Shown: positions 6,117-29,382 of the stretch, one piece after another | How positions within the stretch are numbered: the first letter of the stretch is position 1 | How the letters are laid out: each line of letters starts with the position of its first letter | Assembly (NCBI GenBank): GCA_016184115.1 | Contig: JACPDH010000084.1 | Coordinates: forward strand, 1-44,993 | DNA from: Acidobacteriota bacterium | GTDB lineage: Bacteria; Acidobacteriota; Thermoanaerobaculia; Gp7-AA8 | Direction: 5' to 3' | DNA: 44,993 bases | Notes under the pieces: model-generated | Database searches by the model: none | What the model saw: only the letters and a program-made list of their open reading frames with translations | What the model was told of the DNA's origin: nothing | Position numbers and translations under genes: made by a program

Positions 6117-8320
<2,204 letters not shown>

Positions 8321-8544
8321 ATGGCAGCTTCCGGGCGGTAGCGATCGCCGTTTCTCCTGTTTCACTGGTCATTTCCACCGGCGAGACGCGGAAAGCCTCG
8401 TTACAGGTCACGGCCTGCTTTCCCCTGCCACGGAACCGCAACGGATGATGGCGCGTCCAACGGGCACGAATGAACGACCTCCGGGCCGTGTTGCGGCGAC
8501 TGCGCGGCCATGTTCCTCGGGCCGCGAATGCTAGGATGCCCTTG

Positions 8545-10467
8545 ATGAAACGACTGACTCTCATTGCGATGCTCACGCTGGCATGCCTTTCGGTCGCGGC
8601 GGCCGGAACCCCTGCCGTTGCGCCGGCCGACACGCCTGCCGACATGTACACCTTCATGGAGGCCAGGCTCGCCGCGGAAGACGGCGAGTACAGCCGTGCG
8701 CTCGAGCTGATCGACACGCTCATCGAGAAGAAGCCGAAGGATCCGGTTCTCCGCTACGAGCGTGCCGACATCCTGGCGGCTGCGGCGAAGCTGGAGAAGG
8801 CGATCACGGAGCTTCGCGAGGTCGTGAAGTTGAATCCGAAGTTCTACGAGGCGGAGCGACTTCTCGGCCGCCTGATGGTCGACACCTCGGAAGGCGATCC
8901 GAAGAAGGTCGACGCTGCCCTTGTTCACCTCGACTCGGCGTACCGGCTCAATCCAGGCGATCTCAGCACGGGACTTGCGATCGTGCAGATCCACCTCGCA
9001 GCGGGTCGTGCGAAGGAAGCTGAGGCGATGCTCGGGGAGCTCGCCGAGGCATCGCCCGACAATCGCACGATCAACTACCAGTATTCGCAGATGCTCGTGA
9101 AGGAAGGGCGCCTCGTGGAGGCGAAGCCGTACCTCGAGCGAGTCGTCGCGGCTGATCCGTTGTTCGGACCGGCGCTGTTCCAGCTCATCGATCTCTACCA
9201 GAAGGATGGCGAGTGGATTCGTGCCGCGGAGGCTCTCGATCCGCTGGTCGCCGAAGATCAGCGCAACATCGACCTTCGTCGCCGGCAGGCCTATTTCTAT
9301 CTCGAGGGAGGGCGTCCCGAGGTAGCGGCCGGCCTCCTCGAAGAGCTGATCGCACTCGTTCCCCGCGACGAGCGCACGCGCTATCTCTACGGAGAAGCGT
9401 TGAGCGCGATGGGGAAGTTCGAGAAGGCGAACGAGCAGTACAGGACGCTCCTGCTTCAAGGCAAGCCTAACGACCCGGAACTTCTGCTGAGTCTCGGGAG
9501 CAACCAGATGGCCCTCGGCGAGCTCGCCGACGCGGCGAAGACCTTCGAAGCTCTCGCCGCCGTTCCCGGCATTTCGAGCCAGGGACGGACGATCGCGAAG
9601 ACGCAGCTCGCTGCCATCGACCATCGGAACGGGAAGTACGAAGATGCGCTCGCTAGGGCGCGCAAAGTTCTCGACGAGGCCGACCCGCCGAACTACCAGG
9701 CGGTCGCGATCGTGCTCGACGTGCTTCGAAGACAGGAAAAGCTCGACGACGCGCTCTCCTTTCTCGAAGGTCTGACGACACGCTTCCCCGACGACCAGGT
9801 GCTCGAAGTTCGACAGCTCGAGTACTTTGTTCGCGCGGGTCGAACCGACGAGGCGGCGAAACGCGTCAAAGAGCTCGAAGCGGCCGGGCCGCGCGGCGCA
9901 CTGAGCGCCTCCCAGGCGTATGCGGCAGCCGAGGATTTCAAAGGGGCGATTGCGATTCTCGAAGCGCAGCGGAAGGTGACCCCCGAAGACCTCGATATCG
10001 TGTTCCAGCTCGGTGCGTCGTATGAGCGGAGCGGAGAGATCGAGAAGTCAGAGGCGAGCTTCCTCGAGATTCTCGAAAAGAAGCCCGAGCACTCACCCAC
10101 GCTCAACTACCTCGGCTACATGTGGGCCGATCGAAATGTGCATCTCGACCGCGCTGAGACGATGCTCGTGAAGGCAGTGTCGCTACAACCTCGGAACGGC
10201 GCGTACGTCGATTCGCTCGGATGGGCTTACTACCGGCTCGGCAAGCTCGACCTAGCGCGCAAGTACCTCGAGGATGCCGCGACGCTCGTGCCGCGCGATG
10301 CAACGATTCGCCACCATCTCGGTGATGTCTACGCCAGACTCGGACTCAATGAGAAGGCGCTGTCGGAATACCACCTCGCCCGCGACCTCGAGCCGGAGAC
10401 CGACGCGGAGAAGAAGGCGATTGCGGAGAAGATTGCCCTGTTCGAGGGGAAGACGTCGCGCAAGTGA
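8545..10467 (+). CDS. Secreted TPR-repeat protein
   Basis: After a Sec signal peptide (MKRLTLIAMLTLACLSVAAA) the 640-residue protein consists of tandem tetratricopeptide repeats covering almost its whole length; clear units occur in the first third and near the C-terminus (for example LGWAYYRLGKLDLARKYLE). TPR scaffolds mediate protein-protein contacts, here in the periplasm. The gene overlaps the following lolB-like gene by 4 bp (GTGA). A TPR protein followed by lolB and ispE is also the order in several Proteobacteria, which points to a role in envelope assembly. The ATG at 8545 is preferred over an upstream frame opening at 8470 because it starts the signal peptide and has AGGAT upstream. 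Confidence 0.85.
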   Translation: MKRLTLIAMLTLACLSVAAAGTPAVAPADTPADMYTFMEARLAAEDGEYSRALELIDTLIEKKPKDPVLRYERADILAAAAKLEKAITELREVVKLNPKFYEAERLLGRLMVDTSEGDPKKVDAALVHLDSAYRLNPGDLSTGLAIVQIHLAAGRAKEAEAMLGELAEASPDNRTINYQYSQMLVKEGRLVEAKPYLERVVAADPLFGPALFQLIDLYQKDGEWIRAAEALDPLVAEDQRNIDLRRRQAYFYLEGGRPEVAAGLLEELIALVPRDERTRYLYGEALSAMGKFEKANEQYRTLLLQGKPNDPELLLSLGSNQMALGELADAAKTFEALAAVPGISSQGRTIAKTQLAAIDHRNGKYEDALARARKVLDEADPPNYQAVAIVLDVLRRQEKLDDALSFLEGLTTRFPDDQVLEVRQLEYFVRAGRTDEAAKRVKELEAAGPRGALSASQAYAAAEDFKGAIAILEAQRKVTPEDLDIVFQLGASYERSGEIEKSEASFLEILEKKPEHSPTLNYLGYMWADRNVHLDRAETMLVKAVSLQPRNGAYVDSLGWAYYRLGKLDLARKYLEDAATLVPRDATIRHHLGDVYARLGLNEKALSEYHLARDLEPETDAEKKAIAEKIALFEGKTSRK

Positions 10468-20995: not shown

Positions 20996-21589
20996 ATGAG
21001 GAACAAGCTCACGCTCATCGGCACACTGATCCTGTCGCTCGTCATCCCGGCCTCGGCGGCGGAACGTACACTGACGCTCGATCCTGCCGCGTCCAGGGTG
21101 GATTTCAGGCTTGGCGCAACAGGGCACGATGTCGAGGGCTCGTTCCGTGTCGAAGGAGGATCGCTCACGTTCGACGACGCGACCGGCGCGATGTCGGGTG
21201 AGATCCGTGTCGATGCGAAGAGCGCCCGAACGGGTAACGGCTCGCGCGACAAGACGATGCACGGCGACGTGCTCGAAAGCGTGAGATTCCCGCTCTTTAC
21301 ATTCAAGGCACAGAAGCTGGAAGGGCACGTCGCGGACGCTGGTACGAGTCAAGTCAAACTCCATGGCGTCCTTTCGATCCATGGTGCAGAGCACGCGTTC
21401 GTGATGCCTGCGAGTGTCGATGTGAAGGACTCGAAGGTGAGCGCGACGTCGACGTTCGCGATTCCGTTCATCGAGTGGGGCATGCACGACCCGAGCCTTC
21501 TCTTTCTTCGTGTCAAGAAGTCGGTAGCCGTGACTGTGACCGCGAACGGCACGCTCTCGAACGCTACTCAACAGAGTGGCTCACGATGA
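20996..21589 (+). CDS. YceI-family periplasmic protein
   Basis: This 197-residue protein has a Sec signal peptide (MRNKLTLIGTLILSLVIPASA) and the YceI lipocalin-like barrel: LDPAASRVDFRLGATGHDVEG, a GEIRVDAKSARTGN turn and DVLESVRFPLFTFKA. A structurally studied YceI homologue binds a polyisoprenoid chain in its barrel. Here the stop codon overlaps the start of a prenyl synthase gene (ATGA), which supports an isoprenoid role. A good ribosome-binding site (GAGGAGAA) precedes the ATG. Confidence 0.88.
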   Translation: MRNKLTLIGTLILSLVIPASAAERTLTLDPAASRVDFRLGATGHDVEGSFRVEGGSLTFDDATGAMSGEIRVDAKSARTGNGSRDKTMHGDVLESVRFPLFTFKAQKLEGHVADAGTSQVKLHGVLSIHGAEHAFVMPASVDVKDSKVSATSTFAIPFIEWGMHDPSLLFLRVKKSVAVTVTANGTLSNATQQSGSR

Positions 21590-22596
21590 GCACCGTGCAG
21601 AATCTGCAAATGAGGGTGCAGAAGCTGCAGCCTTCGGCCACGCTTCCGCTGCGCTCCCGCGCTCAATCGAAGCCGAAACTGATTCGTGACAGCGAGCGCC
21701 GCTATCTCCTCGAGGGATATCGAACGCTCGTCCCACGCGACGCGCGAATGGAGCCGCATCTTCGCGGCGTGCTCGACGACTCGCTCGCGCACGCAGGGAG
21801 CCTCGTCCGCGCGCAACTCGTCTTCGGAATCCTGCGTGGGGCGGGGGCGAAGAAGACTCTCGCGCGCCAGATCGCGGTCGCCATCGAGTACTTCCACACG
21901 GCGTCACTGATCTTCGACGACATGCCGTCGATGGACGACGCGGTCGAGCGGCGGGGGAACGCCTGCCCTCACGTGACCTGGGGCGAGGCAGCGGCGACGC
22001 TCGGTGCGCTCGGCCTCATCAATCAGGCGTACGCGCTTCTCTGGAACGGCATTCAGACTCTTCCGGTCACTTCGCGGCGTCGCGCCGCAGCTCTGGTGCG
22101 AGACTCGCTCGGAGTCTCCGGCATCCTCGATGGCCAGTCGCGCGATGTTCACTTCGAGCGGAATGCGGCGGAGGCGGACGTGCTCGAGGTCGCCGAGGGT
22201 AAGACCGTGACGCTGATCCGGCTTACGCTTCTCCTCCCGTCGATCGTGGCTGGGGACGGCGCGCAGACGCGGGCTCGCCTCAACCGGCTGGCGCGCGCCT
22301 GGGGGCTTGCCTATCAGATCGTCGACGACTTCAAGGACTGCCTGCTGAGTCGCGATGAGGCAGGAAAGACGACCGAGCGGGACGAGTTGCTCTCGCGTCC
22401 GAATCTGCCACGGCGCGCCGGCCTCGCATCCGCGATGTCGCGTCTCGATGCGCTGCTCTCCGACGCGAGAGACGAAGTCCTGGCCCTTGCAAGGGCCGGA
22501 GGCGCGCGATGGCGGCCGGTCCTGGCGCTGCAGGAAATTCTCGAAAAGGAGCAGGCTGCAATCGCGCGTCGCGTGGCGCTTCGCGTCTGTGCCTGA
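21586..22596 (+). CDS. Short-chain polyprenyl synthetase (FPP/GGPP synthase type)
   Basis: The 336-residue trans-prenyltransferase carries the first aspartate-rich motif DDMPSMDD (Asp111-Asp117), the following RRG, and the second motif VDDFKD (Asp247, Asp248, Asp251). The spacing of the first motif is the bacterial DDxxxxD type. It condenses IPP with allylic diphosphates. Product length cannot be fixed by eye; HTASLIF before the first motif resembles FPP/GGPP synthases. A basic, Gln-rich N-terminal extension of about 35 residues precedes the domain. Its ATG overlaps the YceI stop codon. Confidence 0.88.
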   Translation: MSTVQNLQMRVQKLQPSATLPLRSRAQSKPKLIRDSERRYLLEGYRTLVPRDARMEPHLRGVLDDSLAHAGSLVRAQLVFGILRGAGAKKTLARQIAVAIEYFHTASLIFDDMPSMDDAVERRGNACPHVTWGEAAATLGALGLINQAYALLWNGIQTLPVTSRRRAAALVRDSLGVSGILDGQSRDVHFERNAAEADVLEVAEGKTVTLIRLTLLLPSIVAGDGAQTRARLNRLARAWGLAYQIVDDFKDCLLSRDEAGKTTERDELLSRPNLPRRAGLASAMSRLDALLSDARDEVLALARAGGARWRPVLALQEILEKEQAAIARRVALRVCA

Positions 22597-22667: not shown

Positions 22668-23948
22668 ATGATCGACCGTTCGGCAATCTTCGGCAGGACC
22701 ACGATCCACGCATTCGCGTGGCTGGCGATCGGCAATGCTGCCGGGGTCGTGCTTGCGCTCCTGCTGCTCGTTCCGGCGTTGGGGTCGATGTTAGGCGAGC
22801 TCACGTGGGGGCGCCTTGCATCGGTGCATCTTTCCGTACAACTCTACGGATGGTGCAGCATCCCGATGATCGCGCTGCTCTGGCGTGTCTACGTCGTGTC
22901 GCCGCGCGCCGGCAGGCTCGCGCCGCTCGCTCTCGATGCATGGTCTGGCGCGCTCGCGTTCGGCGCCGTGTCGTGGCTCCTCGGATCGAACAGCGGAAAG
23001 CCGTTTCTCGAATGGGCTGGCGCGCCGCGCTGGCTCCTTGCGGTGGCAATGTGGATTCTCGCGCTGGCGCTCGCAGCAGCGTTGATCGCGCAGCGACGTT
23101 CGTCCTCGGTGGGCGCAAGCTCGCTCGCGTGGCGTGCGAAGGCGGCTGCGCTCGGCGCTCTATTCATCGTTCCTCTCGTTCTCGCGCTGTCTGCGGATCG
23201 CGCGGTCTATCCCGCAGTCAATCCTCACAGTGGCGGCGCGACCGGCTGGAGTCTCCTCGGAAGTACTCTCGGCATCGTCGTCATCTTCATTGCGACTCCT
23301 GCGCTCGTCGGCGTCGAGCGAAAGGGCTCGGCGCGCGCCGTCGCTACGTGCTGGATTGCGCTTGCCGCGAGCGGCACGCTGTTCGCGCTCGTGGGACATG
23401 GCGACCGCTCGAATCACGAACCGGCCCAGATTGCGGCGCTCGCGACGCTGCTCGTCTGGCCGCCACTGCTGCTGTGGCTTTACTCGAAGTACGAATGGCC
23501 GGCTGCGTCGCGTCGATGGCTCGGCGCGTTCGGCGTCTGGGGCTCGGCGCTCGTATCGACCGCGTTCGCCATGTTTCTGCCTGGGATTCTCGAGCGCACC
23601 AAGTTCACCAACGTGCTCGTGTCGCACTCGCATCTCGCAATGGCGGGTCTGGTTACGAGCTTCTGCATGCTGCTCCTGACCACACTCGATGAGTCTGGAC
23701 GCGCGGGTCGTGCCGCGGGCGATCGCATGACCTTCTGGCTTTGGCAGACGGCTTTCGTTGCTCACATCGGCGCGCTCGCGTATGCCGGATTTCGCGAAGG
23801 CTCGGATCCTGGGCTTGCATTCGGGCCGTCGTTCGCGATCGACGCGGCATATGCCGTGCGCGCGGTCGCTGGAATCGCGATGCTCGCGCTCTCTCTGGTC
23901 TGGCTTTGGCGCGCGCAGGCCGTCACCGAGGAGGAACTGAATGTCTGA
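22668..23948 (+). CDS. CcoN-like haem-copper oxidase subunit I homologue lacking Cu(B) ligands
   Basis: The 426-residue protein has about 12 hydrophobic helices and aligns by eye with CcoN of cbb3 oxidases. WGRLASVHLSVQLYGW matches the helix II region with the low-spin haem His (His54), and VSHSHLAMAGL matches the helix X HxH pair (His320, His322). In CcoN the Cu(B) site needs a His in a WWYGHNAVG-like helix and a later HH pair. Here the first region reads GGATGWSLLGSTL with no His, and the HH pair is not found (LVGHGDRSNHE instead). It is probably a haem b electron carrier rather than an oxygen reductase. The next gene overlaps it by 8 bp. Confidence 0.65.
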   Translation: MIDRSAIFGRTTIHAFAWLAIGNAAGVVLALLLLVPALGSMLGELTWGRLASVHLSVQLYGWCSIPMIALLWRVYVVSPRAGRLAPLALDAWSGALAFGAVSWLLGSNSGKPFLEWAGAPRWLLAVAMWILALALAAALIAQRRSSSVGASSLAWRAKAAALGALFIVPLVLALSADRAVYPAVNPHSGGATGWSLLGSTLGIVVIFIATPALVGVERKGSARAVATCWIALAASGTLFALVGHGDRSNHEPAQIAALATLLVWPPLLLWLYSKYEWPAASRRWLGAFGVWGSALVSTAFAMFLPGILERTKFTNVLVSHSHLAMAGLVTSFCMLLLTTLDESGRAGRAAGDRMTFWLWQTAFVAHIGALAYAGFREGSDPGLAFGPSFAIDAAYAVRAVAGIAMLALSLVWLWRAQAVTEEELNV

Positions 23949-24372
23949 GCGATGGAACGGGGAGCCGTGGCGTTCGCGAGCGAAGGTTCTTTCCGTGCTG
24001 GCCGGTGCGACGGACACGACGACGGGCATTCTGCTCGTCGCGGCGCCTCACTTCACGCTGCACTTGATGGGGATCGAGACAGAGGACGGGAACGAGACAC
24101 TCATCCGGTTCATCGGCGCCTTCGTGCTTGGCGTCGGCGCGTCGTACTTCCTCCCATTCCTTCAGAGGGATCGCGATCAGCGCATTGCCGCACTTCGCTC
24201 CCAGTTCGCGACGACGGGGCTCATCCGACTCTCGATCGCGCTCTTCACCGGGGCCGCCGTCGCGTCTGGCGCGCTGATCGCGCCATGGCTCTCGGTGACC
24301 GCTTCCGATCTGGCTCTCGCAGCAGTGCAGGGGCTGTTCATACGAAGCAGGGTGCTCGATGCCGAGAACTGA
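23941..24372 (+). CDS. Four-helix membrane protein of unknown function
   Basis: This 143-residue protein has about four hydrophobic segments (around VLSVLAGATDTTTGILLVA, FIGAFVLGVGASYFLPFL, IRLSIALFTGAAVASGALIA and the C-terminal helix). It overlaps the CcoN-like gene by 8 bp and the MFS-cytochrome gene by 14 bp, so it is a coupled middle member of that set and probably part of the same complex. I do not recognise the family; it has no Cys and no obvious cofactor motif. Confidence 0.7.
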   Translation: MSERWNGEPWRSRAKVLSVLAGATDTTTGILLVAAPHFTLHLMGIETEDGNETLIRFIGAFVLGVGASYFLPFLQRDRDQRIAALRSQFATTGLIRLSIALFTGAAVASGALIAPWLSVTASDLALAAVQGLFIRSRVLDAEN

Positions 24373-26302
24373 GCGAAACCTGGCCGCTGGCGTCGCGGGG
24401 GCACTCGCCGTCGCCGCGACGTACGTGTTCTTCCTCATTTATGCGCAGTTTGGCTTTCTTCACCTTCTCGACGCGCGCCTGGGCGGTGGCGCGGCGGTCG
24501 GTTCCGCGATGGCGGCGATGGGAATCGCTGGCCTCGTTGCGAGCCTGCTGACCGCGGTCGCTCTTCGTCGGGTACCGGCGAATCTGGCACTCCTCGGGGG
24601 GCTCTTTCTCAGCGCAGGATCGGGACTGGTTTCGATCGTAGCGCAAAGCGCGCCGGCGCTCATCGCGTCGGGAGCGCTCATCGGCGCTTCCACCGCGATA
24701 CTCACCGTTTCTCTCGCGGCGGGGCTGCGAGACTTCGTGCCTCCGCATCGAGTCGGCATCGTCGCCGGCGTCGCGACTGGCGCCGCGTATCTCGTCTGCA
24801 ACCTCCCCGCGCTGTTCGAAGGAGCTCCGCGCGAGCAGGCGTGTGTCGCCGCGGTTCTCTGCACGCTCGCGGCGATCGCGGTCGCGCTCGCATCCTTGCA
24901 TGTTCGTCGATCGGCCGGCGTTAGGCATGAGCCGGCACACGAGGTCGCGCTCTTCACGCGCGCGGGACTCGCGGCGGTCGTCGTGGCACTGCTTGCTCTG
25001 ATTTGGCTCGATTCGGCGGCGTTCCGGATCATTCAGGAGACGGCGGAGCTCAAGGGAATCACATGGGGAAGCGAGACGCAGAAGCTGATCCAGGGACTCG
25101 CGCACGTTGCCGGCGCCGTGCTGGCCGGCCATCTGATCGATCGCGGGGCGTTTCGCTCGATCATTGGAGTGACCTGGATCCTCTTCGCGGCCTCGTTCCT
25201 CGCAATCGGTACGAGCCCTTCGTGGATCGTGCTCGTCGGCCCGCTCTATGCGATCGGAATCTCCGCGTATTCGACTGCTCTCGTTGCCTATCCTTCGCTC
25301 CGCGACGACGAGTTGGGACTCGTGTCACGCCGTTGGCGCGCCGGCCTGCTCTATGGCGTTTCCGGATGGATCGGCTCCGCGCTCGGCGTTGGCATGGCGC
25401 AGGATCTTCACGACATCCCGAACTGGTTTCTGGCCGCATCCGGCCTCGCGATCGGCGTCGCGCTGCTCCATCGCCATCGATCCGCGATCGTCCGAGTGTT
25501 TCGAGCGGCGGCGATACCCGTGATGCTTGCAGGCGCAGCGGTCGTAGTTCACGTCGCATGGCAACCCGGCGCCGCCGGGTCCGCCGTCGAGCGCGGTCGC
25601 GAAGTCTACGCCTCGGAGGGGTGCGTCAACTGCCATTCGCAATATGTTAGGCCCGGCACGTTCGACGAGGTCGCCTGGGGGCCATATCACCCGATCGACC
25701 GGAACGAACGGCCACCGTTCGTCGGAAACCGGCGCCAGGGGCCCGACCTGATGAACGTCGCCCTCCGCCGCTCGCCAGTCTGGAACAGGGTACATCTGAT
25801 CGATCCGCGCGCGTTGGTACCGGGCTCGCGTATGCCTTCCTACGCGCATCTCTTCGTCGAAGGCGACAGCCGGGGAGACGATCTCGTCGCCTACCTCGAC
25901 ACTCGGGGAGTTGCCTTTGCGAGCGAGCGCCTTGCGGCGGTCACCGCGTGGAAGCCTCCAGTCAACCTGATTCCGAGCGCCTTACAGGGCCGCGCCGTGT
26001 ATTTGGGCCAATGCGCTGCCTGCCATGGAGAGCGCGGTCACGGAGATGGTGCGCTCGCGGCTCGATTCAGGACGCCCGTGCTGAACCTCTTGAAGCCGGA
26101 GTTGCTCTCGCTGAACCAGACAGCAGTAGCCGAGCCCGAAGAAGTGCAACTCGCACGCATCGTGAAGTTCGGCCTCGCGCCCTCGTCGATGCCCGGGCAC
26201 GAGACGATGCACGATCAGGACGTCGTCCACGTCGTCGCGTACCTCCACGAACTGCGGAGCCATCGCGCGAGACTCGAGGCAACTCGGCGAGGCTCGCGTT
26301 GA
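24359..26302 (+). CDS. MFS-like membrane domain fused to CcoO-like and second cytochrome c domains
   Basis: The 647-residue protein joins three parts. Residues 1 to about 395 form about 12 hydrophobic helices with an MFS-transporter look (GLFLSAGSGLVSIVAQSA, GAVLAGHLIDRG). Residues 405-520 match CcoO of cbb3 oxidase: haem site CVNCH (Cys422, Cys425, His426) in GREVYASEGCVNCHSQYVRP, then RRQGPDLMNV, RVHLIDPRALVPGS and the likely axial Met in RMPSY. Residues 540-647 form a second cytochrome c with CAACH (Cys552, Cys555, His556), GHGDG and the likely Met of SSMPGH. In CcoO one short helix anchors the haem domain; here a whole transporter-like domain replaces it. It follows the CcoN-like gene, so the pair may make a redox complex. 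Transport substrate unknown. Confidence 0.82.
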   Translation: MPRTERNLAAGVAGALAVAATYVFFLIYAQFGFLHLLDARLGGGAAVGSAMAAMGIAGLVASLLTAVALRRVPANLALLGGLFLSAGSGLVSIVAQSAPALIASGALIGASTAILTVSLAAGLRDFVPPHRVGIVAGVATGAAYLVCNLPALFEGAPREQACVAAVLCTLAAIAVALASLHVRRSAGVRHEPAHEVALFTRAGLAAVVVALLALIWLDSAAFRIIQETAELKGITWGSETQKLIQGLAHVAGAVLAGHLIDRGAFRSIIGVTWILFAASFLAIGTSPSWIVLVGPLYAIGISAYSTALVAYPSLRDDELGLVSRRWRAGLLYGVSGWIGSALGVGMAQDLHDIPNWFLAASGLAIGVALLHRHRSAIVRVFRAAAIPVMLAGAAVVVHVAWQPGAAGSAVERGREVYASEGCVNCHSQYVRPGTFDEVAWGPYHPIDRNERPPFVGNRRQGPDLMNVALRRSPVWNRVHLIDPRALVPGSRMPSYAHLFVEGDSRGDDLVAYLDTRGVAFASERLAAVTAWKPPVNLIPSALQGRAVYLGQCAACHGERGHGDGALAARFRTPVLNLLKPELLSLNQTAVAEPEEVQLARIVKFGLAPSSMPGHETMHDQDVVHVVAYLHELRSHRARLEATRRGSR

Positions 26303-27225
26303 CTCCGCGAGGGCGAAGGGCACTCGTCGGCGCGGCGATCGCCGCGAGCTGCGTCGTTGCGGCGATTCCCACCCTGGGGTGGACGACGCGGCATCGGCCG
26401 TGGGAGCAGGCGAGCGGCTGGGATTCGATCCCTCTCGTCGAACGCCCCGTCACGAATGAGCTCTGGAATGGCGAGAGCGGCGAACCTCCGCGACTTCGAT
26501 GGCTCGGGCACGCCGGCATGCGAATCGAGTGGCACGGCATGGTTCTCGTCACCGACCCTAACCTCAATGATCGCTGTACGGTCGCAGCGCGCGTCCTCGA
26601 ACCTGTCGAGCCATCGTGGGTCGGTCATGTCGACGCGGTGCTCGTGAGCCACGCGCATTACGACCATCTCGATCGAGCGACGCTGCGGGCCATTGGCCCC
26701 GTTGAAACAATCGCCATTCCGAACGGAGCGAGCCGGTATCTCACTGCCGACGCGATCGACGGTGCGGAGGTCGTCGAGTTGGAGCCTGGAGAGGCGTTGC
26801 GCGTCGGTGAGCTGATCGTCACGGCCGTGCCGGCGGCGCACAATGGAAACCGATTCCATCCGCTCGCGAGCCGCGTCGGCGCGCTTGGCTATGTGGTCTC
26901 CGATGGTCGCAACGCGATCTACGTTGCCGGTGACACGGCGGCACGCAACGACTTCGAGTCGATTCGTGATGCCTACCATCCACGCGTGGCCGTTCTCCCA
27001 GTTGGTGCGTTCCTGCCGAAGTTCCCGGTCGGGCACTTTCATCTCAGCCCCGAGGAGGCGGCGGCGGTGGCGAAACGGCTAGGAGTCGAAACAGTGGTTC
27101 CATACCACTTCGGTACGTTCCGGCTTTCGTTCGACGAGCCGGAGATTGCGCTGCCTCGTTTCGCGACGGCGGCGCGACGCGAGCAGGTTCGATGGGTGAT
27201 GCCGATGCTGCTCCATGACCATTAA
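26299..27225 (+). CDS. NAPE-PLD/UlaG-like MBL-fold hydrolase, membrane anchored
   Basis: The 308-residue protein has an N-terminal hydrophobic anchor (ALVGAAIAASCVVAAIPTLG) and an MBL domain: LRWLGHAGMRIEWHGMVLVTDP, the metal site SHAHYDHLD (His118, His120, Asp122, His123), VAGDTAAR, and YHFGTFRLSFDEP near the end. The last motif and the WLGH opening resemble N-acylphosphatidylethanolamine phospholipase D, so a phosphodiesterase acting on lipids at the membrane is plausible. The best start is a TTG at 26299 that overlaps the stop codon of the preceding gene (TTGA), showing coupled translation. Family firm, substrate inferred. Confidence 0.78.
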   Translation: MTPRGRRALVGAAIAASCVVAAIPTLGWTTRHRPWEQASGWDSIPLVERPVTNELWNGESGEPPRLRWLGHAGMRIEWHGMVLVTDPNLNDRCTVAARVLEPVEPSWVGHVDAVLVSHAHYDHLDRATLRAIGPVETIAIPNGASRYLTADAIDGAEVVELEPGEALRVGELIVTAVPAAHNGNRFHPLASRVGALGYVVSDGRNAIYVAGDTAARNDFESIRDAYHPRVAVLPVGAFLPKFPVGHFHLSPEEAAAVAKRLGVETVVPYHFGTFRLSFDEPEIALPRFATAARREQVRWVMPMLLHDH

Positions 27226-27240: not shown

Positions 27241-29382
27241 ATGAAAACGATCGCCTCTCTACTCATCGCACTTTCCCGGCTCTCGGTTGCGAGGCCGCGG
27301 CGCACGCTTCTCGTGTGGGCGCTTCTCGTCGTGCTTTCGCTTCTGGCCGCTGCCGCGCGACTCGAGTTACGTTCTTCGAATCTCGATCTGATCGACCCCA
27401 AGCTCCCTGAAGTTCGCGCCTTTCTCGATGTTGCGGAGGAGTTCGGCACGCCGAACGTCCTCGTGGTCGTGCTGGAGGGAGCGGACGAGGTGAAGCTCGG
27501 GATGGCCGTCGATCGCATCGCGCCGCGGCTCGAGAAGGTACCTGGCGTCCGCCGGGTTGCCGCGCGGCTCCCGCTCGACGAGGCGACACTCGCGGAGGCC
27601 GGGGTCGAGCCGTACCTCACGTCGACCGACGGGACGATGTACTTCGCGTTCGTTCAGCCGGCCGATCCGCATTCCAGCGCGACGAGCATCGAGCCGTTCG
27701 TTCGCGGGGTGCGCGATGCGCTCTCCGCCGCGCGGCTCGACGAGCTGGGCGTGAAGGCAGGCCTAACGGGACTCCCGGCGTACGCTCTCGACGACAAGGA
27801 GATCATTCAGGGAGACATTTCGAAGTTGTCGCTGATCTCGATGGTGATGGTCGTGCTCGTCGTCGTGTTCGCGTTCGGCTCGGTTCGGCGACCCGTGATG
27901 GCGGGGCTCGCCTTGCTCGCGGGAGAGGGAATGACGCTCGGCCTCGTCGCCGCCTATCCCGGACACCTCACACTCCTCTCGGCCTTCTCTGCCTCGATTC
28001 TCGCGGGGCTCGGCGTCGACTACGGTATCCATCTCGTCAATCGGGTCGAGGAGTTGACGGGAGGCGGGCTCAACGAGATCGACGCGGTCACCGGCGCGGC
28101 CCGCGCGCTCTCGCGCGGTCTCGTGAGCGGCGCGCTGACGACGGCGGCCGTGTTCTTTTCGATGATCGTCTCGGGCTTTCTTGGATTCGAAGAGCTCGGC
28201 CTGATCATCGGCGCGGGAGTGCTCGTCTGTCTCCCGGTCAATCTCTCGCTCCTTCCCGCGCTGCTCGTGACGTTTCCGCCGAGGCGGAGACGCGAAAGAC
28301 CGTCCACGGAACGGAAGATCGGACGAGCGCTGCTCGCGCTGCAAAGCCGACGGGTCTCCGTACTGCTCGCGATCGTCGCGCTCGCGGGTCTCGCCGTCGG
28401 CATGCCCGCGTTCGACGGGAACTATCTCAACATGGAACCGAAGGGCACGGAGACGGCACGACTCGAGCGCGAGATGGTGAAGCGGTCGGATCTCTCACCC
28501 GAGTTCGCGATCTTCGTTGCGAGCTCGCGCGCGGAGGCGGCCGCGCTCACCGACAGATTGCTCGATGAGCCGCTCGTCGGTGAGGTTCACTCGATCTCGG
28601 ATTTCGATCTTCTCGGTGAGGCGGCGGCAAGACTGCCGGCCTCGTTCCGCGCGACGTTCGAGAGTCCGCGCGGGCGCTTCGCCGTGTACGCCTACCCTGA
28701 AGGCGACATTTGGGACCCGGTGCAGGAGAGTCGGTTCCTCGAGGCGATGGAGAGGATCGATCCGAACGTCACGGGGATGCCGGTGCTCGGACACTTCATG
28801 ATCGATCGATCGTGGCGTGCGCTGCAGATCACCGGCACGATCGGCGGGCTCATCGTTCTGATCGTCGTGTTTGCGGACTTTCGAAGGCCGCTACCGTCGC
28901 TCCTCGCGAGCCTTCCGGTCTTCCTCACCGCGGCGTCGATGCCGGCGCTGATGAAGTTGCTAGGTCTGCAGCTCAACCCGCTAAATGTGATGGCACTTCC
29001 GGTCGTCGTCGGGATCGGAGTCGACGAGGGGATTCACGTCGTGCATCGGTTCGTCGACGAGGCAGGCGACGTCGCGCGCACGCTCGCGGGCACCGGGCGC
29101 AGTATCCTGCTGACCGCCGGAACCGACGTCGCGGCATTCGGCACGCTCGCCTTTACGCAACACCGAGGTCTCGCATCGTTTGCACTGGCGTTGACGATCG
29201 GAGTCTCGCTCGCAATCGTCTACTCGGTCATCGTGCTGCCGGGGATTCTGGATATTTTACGGGTGAGAGTGCTGCGGAGTGCGGGGCCGCGTGAAGCAGA
29301 CACGAGCGCCGGCGCGCAGCCTGTGCCCCTCGCGGTTTCTGCGGTGACAAGTGGTTGCCGCGAAGCGGCGACGGATCGGTAG
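27241..29382 (+). CDS. MMPL/RND-family transporter
   Basis: The 713-residue protein has the duplicated RND layout: a helix, a periplasmic domain, a block of five to six helices containing GLGVDYGIHLVNRVEEL, and then the same order again with GIGVDEGIHVVHRFVDE. This form resembles MMPL/HpnN proteins that move lipids such as hopanoids to the outer membrane. It starts 16 nt after the lipase-like hydrolase, so it extends the run from YceI. The C-terminus after RVRVLRSAG looks non-conserved, and its last residues (GCREAATDR) are encoded by a GAA-loop palindrome at 29357-29369. Confidence 0.85.
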   Translation: MKTIASLLIALSRLSVARPRRTLLVWALLVVLSLLAAAARLELRSSNLDLIDPKLPEVRAFLDVAEEFGTPNVLVVVLEGADEVKLGMAVDRIAPRLEKVPGVRRVAARLPLDEATLAEAGVEPYLTSTDGTMYFAFVQPADPHSSATSIEPFVRGVRDALSAARLDELGVKAGLTGLPAYALDDKEIIQGDISKLSLISMVMVVLVVVFAFGSVRRPVMAGLALLAGEGMTLGLVAAYPGHLTLLSAFSASILAGLGVDYGIHLVNRVEELTGGGLNEIDAVTGAARALSRGLVSGALTTAAVFFSMIVSGFLGFEELGLIIGAGVLVCLPVNLSLLPALLVTFPPRRRRERPSTERKIGRALLALQSRRVSVLLAIVALAGLAVGMPAFDGNYLNMEPKGTETARLEREMVKRSDLSPEFAIFVASSRAEAAALTDRLLDEPLVGEVHSISDFDLLGEAAARLPASFRATFESPRGRFAVYAYPEGDIWDPVQESRFLEAMERIDPNVTGMPVLGHFMIDRSWRALQITGTIGGLIVLIVVFADFRRPLPSLLASLPVFLTAASMPALMKLLGLQLNPLNVMALPVVVGIGVDEGIHVVHRFVDEAGDVARTLAGTGRSILLTAGTDVAAFGTLAFTQHRGLASFALALTIGVSLAIVYSVIVLPGILDILRVRVLRSAGPREADTSAGAQPVPLAVSAVTSGCREAATDR

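Follow-up and report, generated by a model that had tools for sequence, protein, structure and literature searches.

An MFS transporter fused to a CcoO domain and a second cytochrome c beside a CcoN homologue without CuB ligands in Acidobacteriota

The 44,993 nt stretch at positions 1-44,993 of contig JACPDH010000084.1 of an Acidobacteriota bacterium (assembly GCA_016184115.1; Thermoanaerobaculia, Gp7-AA8), hereafter the window, contains on its forward strand at 24359-26302 a single uninterrupted 647-residue reading frame with an ATG start, in which a transporter of the major facilitator superfamily (MFS) continues into a CcoO haem domain and further into a second cytochrome c domain. Together with the product of a nearby gene, a CcoN homologue that has lost the CuB ligands, the fusion protein is interpreted as part of a cbb3-derived electron-transfer complex, not a haem-copper oxidase, which is tied to a retained MFS transporter and is probably quinone-linked, and to this interpretation we assign about an even chance. 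It rests on domains, predicted folds, the missing CuB ligands, the operon, conservation and co-occurrence; haem binding, complex formation, quinone as the partner and coupling to transport are the parts that we infer.

24359-26302, forward strand: fusion protein of MFS transporter, CcoO and cytochrome c, 647 amino acids (reading frame, Pfam, structural model)
24359-25480, forward strand: predicted 12-helix MFS domain, residues 1 to about 374 (model against MFS chains, Z about 30; invariant residues)
25505-25558, forward strand: helix 13, residues about 383-400, putative equivalent of the CcoO anchor (hydropathy and loop charges; homologous helix in locus L047)
25592-25861, forward strand: CcoO/FixO domain, residues 412-501 (Pfam FixO, 6.5e-23)
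25985-26254, forward strand: second cytochrome c domain, residues 543-632 (Pfam Cytochrom_C, 4.1e-11; invariant C552, C555, H556 and M611)
22668-23948, forward strand: CcoN homologue without CuB ligands, H54, H320 and H322 kept (profile, 6.7e-7; fold, Z 29.0; ligand inventory)

Domains and membrane topology of the fusion protein

The Pfam FixO/CcoO match covered residues 412-501 with 81.8 bits against a cut-off of 29.6, and this domain contains a CVNCH motif at 422-426 and an axial-Met-type MPSY at 492. In the second cytochrome c, CAACH is situated at 552-556 and the axial-type Met is M611. Both CXXCH motifs as well as M492 and M611 were unchanged across 16 aligned sequences, with C422, C425, H426 and M492 as the invariant residues of the CcoO domain. 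The NCBIfam ccoO equivalog TIGR00781 was not reached by the fusion protein (76.4 bits against 200.65). The description of one frame with an MFS body, a CcoO domain and another cytochrome c, given in the original prediction, was thus borne out by the Pfam FixO and Cytochrom_C matches and by the MFS fold of the model.

For the N-terminal body the evidence is mainly structural. Residues 1-374 of the model aligned with full-length MFS transporters at Z 28-31, with an rmsd of mostly 3.0-3.8 Å over 330-354 residues, which is the match expected of a 12-helix MFS fold. By sequence, the Pfam family MFS_1 was marginal for the window protein (E=0.2, 11.0 bits against a cut-off of 33.4) and was matched by 7 of 16 relatives, at best with 9.7e-5. 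An oxidase subunit as the source of the N-terminus was rejected, since the fold matches of the model are MFS proteins; no better alignment to an oxidase was found, and a profile search of PDB sequences with the N-terminus returned no oxidase and no meaningful match at all. None of the NCBIfam MFS subfamilies was assigned to the domain, and the structural matches singled out no subfamily or substrate, as VMAT, VAChT, MelB, NorA and others were tied or nearly so. A motif A-like loop (GxLxDRxG), AGHLIDRGAFRS, follows TM8 in the window protein and its near relatives; after TM2 the loop is degenerate, and Acidobacteriaceae have lost it. The residues Q30, N148, D218, H249 and Y304 within the helices are invariant, and equally so in stand-alone relatives that have no haem domain. 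These residues most likely belong to the transport site, and as they are shared by fused and stand-alone members alike, the domain has probably kept its transport function. The same observation weakens the earlier suggestion that the helix bundle might serve as a mere platform for quinol or haem.

On the basis of hydropathy and loop charges, the protein has 13 transmembrane helices, not 12, with helix 13 at about residues 383-400 directly after the basic loop HRSAIVRVFR. The 12-helix transporter domain of the original prediction therefore holds for the fold but not for the total, and its notion that the transporter had taken the place of the single CcoO helix was not supported, since that 13th helix remains. 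Helix 13 is probably CcoO's own normal anchor, because the separate CcoO gene of Verrucomicrobiae bacterium DG1235 begins with an equivalent helix. The fusion is accordingly best seen as an MFS gene placed in front of a complete gene for a helix-anchored CcoO and cytochrome c, in which arrangement both c haems would be periplasmic. The AlphaFold model had a mean pLDDT of 79.9, with the transporter helices mostly above 90 and the haem part weak.

A CcoN-like subunit without the CuB site

The protein encoded at 22668-23948 gave no Pfam match when searched alone. When a profile of its family was run against solved cbb3 oxidases, CcoN was found at 6.7e-7, and COX1 was matched by 3 of 15 family members, at best with 3.1e-8. 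Its model (mean pLDDT 88.8) aligned with CcoN 9g6b_A at Z 29.0 (rmsd 4.1, 404 residues aligned), a tie with NorB at Z 28.1, and a CcoN fold is thereby predicted.

For the inventory of ligands, 15 CcoN-like sequences were aligned with the true CcoN of the same genome. The equivalents of the CuB ligands H207 and H258 were His in none of the 15 sequences, and the H257 column was inconsistent, the local alignment being uncertain there. The haem ligand His of helix II (H68 equivalent, H54 in the window) was kept in 14 of 14 sequences, one fragment not covering it, and the first His of helix X (H345 equivalent, window H320) in all 15. The second His of helix X (window H322) was kept in 10 of 15, the window protein included. 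To judge from this alignment the haem-copper active site is absent from the CcoN-like subunit, so that it would not reduce O2 or NO in the haem-copper way. Nor is the gene the only candidate for a respiratory oxidase in its genome, as four other haem-copper oxidase genes exceeded the Pfam cut-off; these include a CcoN beside a canonical CcoO on contig C95. The parts of the ordinary respiratory cluster on that contig (locus L040 of genome G000) were identified by eye as a Rieske-like protein, cytochrome b, a multihaem cytochrome c of 589 residues, CcoN, CcoO, a ferredoxin-type membrane protein and a copper-type P-ATPase.

Recurrence, co-occurrence and operon context

In a scan of the genome collection and additional surveys, the same fusion turned up at over 20 loci, distributed over Acidobacteriota, Verrucomicrobiota, Cloacimonadota and one metagenome-assembled genome (MAG) labelled 'Deltaproteobacteria', and the cultured Acidipila rosea is among its carriers. 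Within the same class, other families contain the fusion at full length (G095 and G091) or in two contig pieces (G089). Its presence in many independent genomes and assemblies excludes an assembly error joining two genes, which had been named as one of two findings that would overturn the original prediction. In G081, of the same class, the fusion (L036, 6390-8063) is 557 residues long and ends after CcoO, which indicates that the second cytochrome c domain is dispensable or was lost there.

Separate states were also identified. In DG1235 the two halves are neighbouring genes overlapping by 8 bases (L047, 9998-11164 and 11157-11927), and stand-alone MFS members occur in Opitutia, with a sulfatase-family gene next, and in one Cloacimonadota genome, with a gene of the RND family next. 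Mapped on the MFS-domain tree, the fused, adjacent and stand-alone states require five changes, at least four of them forced by supported branches, with a direction that the tree does not give, and a single origin of the fused state was not recovered. Two other in-frame joins, MFS into RND in L046 (9884-14248) and CcoN-like into MFS in L052 (2433-5240), stand among genes lying in different frames, and are probably frameshifts or long open frames of high-GC MAGs.

Among 584 sampled genomes, CcoN-like genes were present in 21 and the MFS family in 23, and each of the 21 also carried the MFS gene; no CcoN-like gene was found without it. In an even sample of 396 Acidobacteriota genomes the MFS family occurred in seven and the CcoN-like gene in the same seven, and among 188 genomes from the class that includes DG1235 (Verrucomicrobiota) the CcoN-like gene occurred in 14, all with MFS (14/14), two more having MFS alone. 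These counts are not independent, as the two genes are linked in most co-occurring genomes. They are, however, found apart as well: in G574 and G630 the MFS gene is missing from the CcoN-like/CcoO cluster and was found at a distance of about 16 kb and 300 kb, respectively, in G455 the distance exceeds 1 Mb, and in G554 the two genes are on different contigs. The co-occurrence favours a functional link of the transporter and the redox module.

In the window, neighbouring genes between 20996 and 29382 overlap or almost abut, and their order recurs in related loci. In addition to the fusion and the CcoN-like gene, the operon includes the following:

20996-21589, forward strand: YceI-family periplasmic lipid/isoprenoid-binding protein, first gene of the operon (Pfam YceI, 3e-21; same place in related loci)
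21586-22596, forward strand: polyprenyl diphosphate synthase, short-chain, FPP/GGPP-type (Pfam polyprenyl_synt, 6.5e-32; start inferred from sequence)
23941-24372, forward strand: small membrane protein, about four helices by eye (conserved in ten loci)
26299-27225, forward strand: MBL-fold hydrolase, Lactamase_B_2 (Pfam, 9.8e-30)
27241-29382, forward strand: RND/MMPL transporter related to the hopanoid transporter HpnN (Pfam MMPL, 3.5e-31)

The start of the polyprenyl synthase overlaps the YceI stop, and NCBIfam models of the FPP/CrtE type matched the synthase below their cut-offs. The gene of the small membrane protein overlaps both its neighbours and usually adjoins the CcoN-like gene or the fusion; the protein had no Pfam match and no invariant His across ten loci. 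In L053 and L054 (both 8128-9954) it is fused with the CcoN-like protein in one frame of 608 residues. As read from the sequence, the MBL hydrolase has a TTG start overlapping the stop of the fusion. The RND protein was matched by the HpnN model at 2.4e-92, below the cut-off of the model.

In Acidobacteriaceae, many Verrucomicrobiota and others, the RND gene gives way to genes for an FtsX permease and an ABC ATPase, which follow the synthase and precede the CcoN-like gene, and a response regulator often adjoins the operon in related loci. Menaquinone-type genes (UbiE, UbiA or MenF-type) lie within a few genes of the cluster at six loci, of the RND type: UbiE in L035, L037/L064, L051/L134 and L135, UbiA in L035 and L048, and a gene for a chorismate-binding enzyme in L036 (10914-12398). 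The stretches concerned are 5082-7695 in L035 and 12256-13833 in L037. An unnamed conserved protein is placed between RND and UbiE in L035, L037 and L051. The sulfatase-family membrane protein (L065, 11237-13294; L055, 7710-9749; L119, L120, L123 and L127) is located after stand-alone MFS genes in Opitutia and also upstream of some fused clusters, and this recurrence suggests that it belongs to the system.

Proposed function and known systems

In the proposed mechanism the redox complex encoded by the operon would sit in the membrane and descend from the CcoN/CcoO core of cbb3 oxidase, with a CcoN-like subunit that keeps the haem-ligand His residues (H54, H320 and H322 here) but has no CuB site. 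Electrons would most likely pass through this subunit between a membrane partner and the pair of c haems that the fusion would hold in the periplasm. The partner is probably the menaquinone pool, or else a lipid-like isoprenoid, because of the polyprenyl synthase, YceI and menaquinone-type genes nearby. The MFS subunit, fused or co-occurring, would be a working transporter, and the fusion would tie the transport step to electron transfer, in the manner proposed for MamX/MamZ/MamH. Judged by the fusion and the co-occurrence, transport and electron transfer appear to be parts of a single process; that electron flow is coupled to solute movement, as the original prediction considered, goes a step beyond this and would follow by inference. 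The more specific version, a new redox-coupled transporter in which a cbb3-derived b/c module free of O2 reduction drives or gates the MFS protein with isoprenoid or quinone supplied by its own operon, is tentative, with roughly one chance in five or slightly better.

Several observations weigh against the cbb3-derived complex. In the fusion model, pLDDT falls below 50 at 423-437, 439-444 and 450-466 of the haem part. H322 is lost in the Acidobacteriaceae relatives of the CcoN-like protein, and the low-spin haem may therefore be absent in them. There is no menaquinone gene beside the operon in the window itself. Moreover, G451, G452, G453, G454 and G456 combine a stand-alone MFS gene with either no CcoN-like match or a weak one that fits true CcoN, and as some genomes thus carry MFS without the CcoN-like gene, the transporter can work alone, without the redox module.

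Of the other explanations, oxidation and export of a lipid or isoprenoid, in which the haem chain would oxidise or reduce a prenyl lipid, the MFS protein flip it, and RND or FtsX/ABC carry it outward, is improbable but ranks level with the specific coupled transporter. It agrees with the constant neighbours, i.e. isoprenoid synthase, YceI and an HpnN-like RND or FtsX/ABC exporter, often with the MBL hydrolase, and with the position of the sulfatase-family gene beside stand-alone MFS genes and upstream of some fused clusters; yet no prenyl-installing enzyme is constant in the operon, and the UbiE, UbiA and MenF-type neighbours fit quinones equally well. Somewhat less probable is a MamXZH-like metal system, in which the MFS protein would move iron, another redox metal or a chelate, and the haem chain would reduce or oxidise the metal en route. 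Here, too, a transporter is combined with a b-type haem protein and with c haems, and D218 and H249 are invariant in the MFS helices, but the redox domains are unrelated, with no ferric reductase domain, and the operon partners relate to lipids and isoprenoids (YceI, polyprenyl synthase, HpnN-like RND, sulfatase family) rather than to metals.

A neutral fusion, through loss of a stop codon between adjacent overlapping genes whose transporter and cytochrome act independently, is unlikely, and slightly more so than the metal system. The parts being separate in DG1235 and apart in G574, G630 and G455, the existence of stand-alone MFS genes and the repeated change of state on the tree (at least four times) would all accord with it, whereas the fused state is maintained across several phyla, and the CcoN-like gene was always accompanied by MFS in the 584 genomes. 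Least probable by far is an accessory for copper uptake of cbb3, i.e. a CcoA-like importer fused to CcoO for oxidase assembly. CcoA is an MFS protein required in cbb3 biogenesis (PMC8406296, PMC6362234), but a CcoA/CalT identity was rejected on the absence of its motifs, MxxxM in TM7 and HxxxM in TM8 (PMC8406296): TM7 reads LDSAAFRIIQ and TM8 HVAGA, and the relatives have no such Met. In addition, such an importer would find no CuB site to supply in the neighbouring CcoN-like subunit, and the genuine cbb3-type genes are on another contig.

Haem-copper oxidase cores are normally equated with O2 or NO reduction. If the cbb3-derived electron-transfer complex is real, the CcoN/CcoO scaffold has been put to a different use, in a conserved branch that is free of the metal site and, in several phyla, linked with a secondary transporter, and the powering or gating of an MFS transporter by electron transfer becomes testable in the cultured Acidipila rosea. 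Annotation pipelines may also take such CcoO domains for cbb3 oxidase, by which microaerobic respiration would be overstated.

The layout of MFS, CcoO and cytochrome c was described nowhere in the open-access literature searched, subscription papers being outside the search, in agreement with the original prediction, which had known of no such protein. Nothing on this protein was found there under MFS-cytochrome c fusion, acidobacterial CcoN-like, CuB-less haem-copper oxidase, or YceI with polyprenyl synthetase and cytochrome. Among known systems, nitric oxide reductase (NorB/NorC) resembles the present one in that the CcoN-like model matches NorB nearly as well as CcoN, but the three-His FeB site is absent here and the partner domain is CcoO/FixO by profile. 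The CcoN and CcoO of cbb3 oxidase share the fold of the neighbour and the domain sequence of the fusion, but the present CcoN-like subunit is without CuB ligands and an MFS transporter precedes CcoO. The bifunctional CcoO/cytochrome c (NCBIfam PRK14486) has the same succession of CcoO and a second cytochrome c, although the fusion scores 97 of 447 bits, far under the equivalog cut-off. CcoA/CalT are likewise MFS proteins associated with cbb3 oxidase, but their motifs are missing here and no such fusion was found described.

The nearest described precedent is the magnetosome MamZ/MamX/MamH system of Magnetospirillum, similar in plan and of another family. MamZ consists of an MFS body and a YedZ-like ferric reductase, and its proposed role is in a complex with the cytochrome MamX that acts as iron oxidoreductase and transporter (PMC3905215, PMC3971196). 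In both systems an MFS body is fused to a redox domain and has a c-type cytochrome partner, with joint transport and redox function proposed for MamZ (PMC3905215, PMC3971196). The two differ in that MamZ has the YedZ-like domain, a family absent among the Pfam matches of the fusion to E=1, and MamX has magnetochrome domains, in place of CcoO and another cytochrome c; here, furthermore, a CcoN devoid of CuB forms the membrane haem subunit, the operon is of another type and the phyla are others. The fusion protein would be a second, unrelated case of an MFS body fused to a redox domain, after MamZ.
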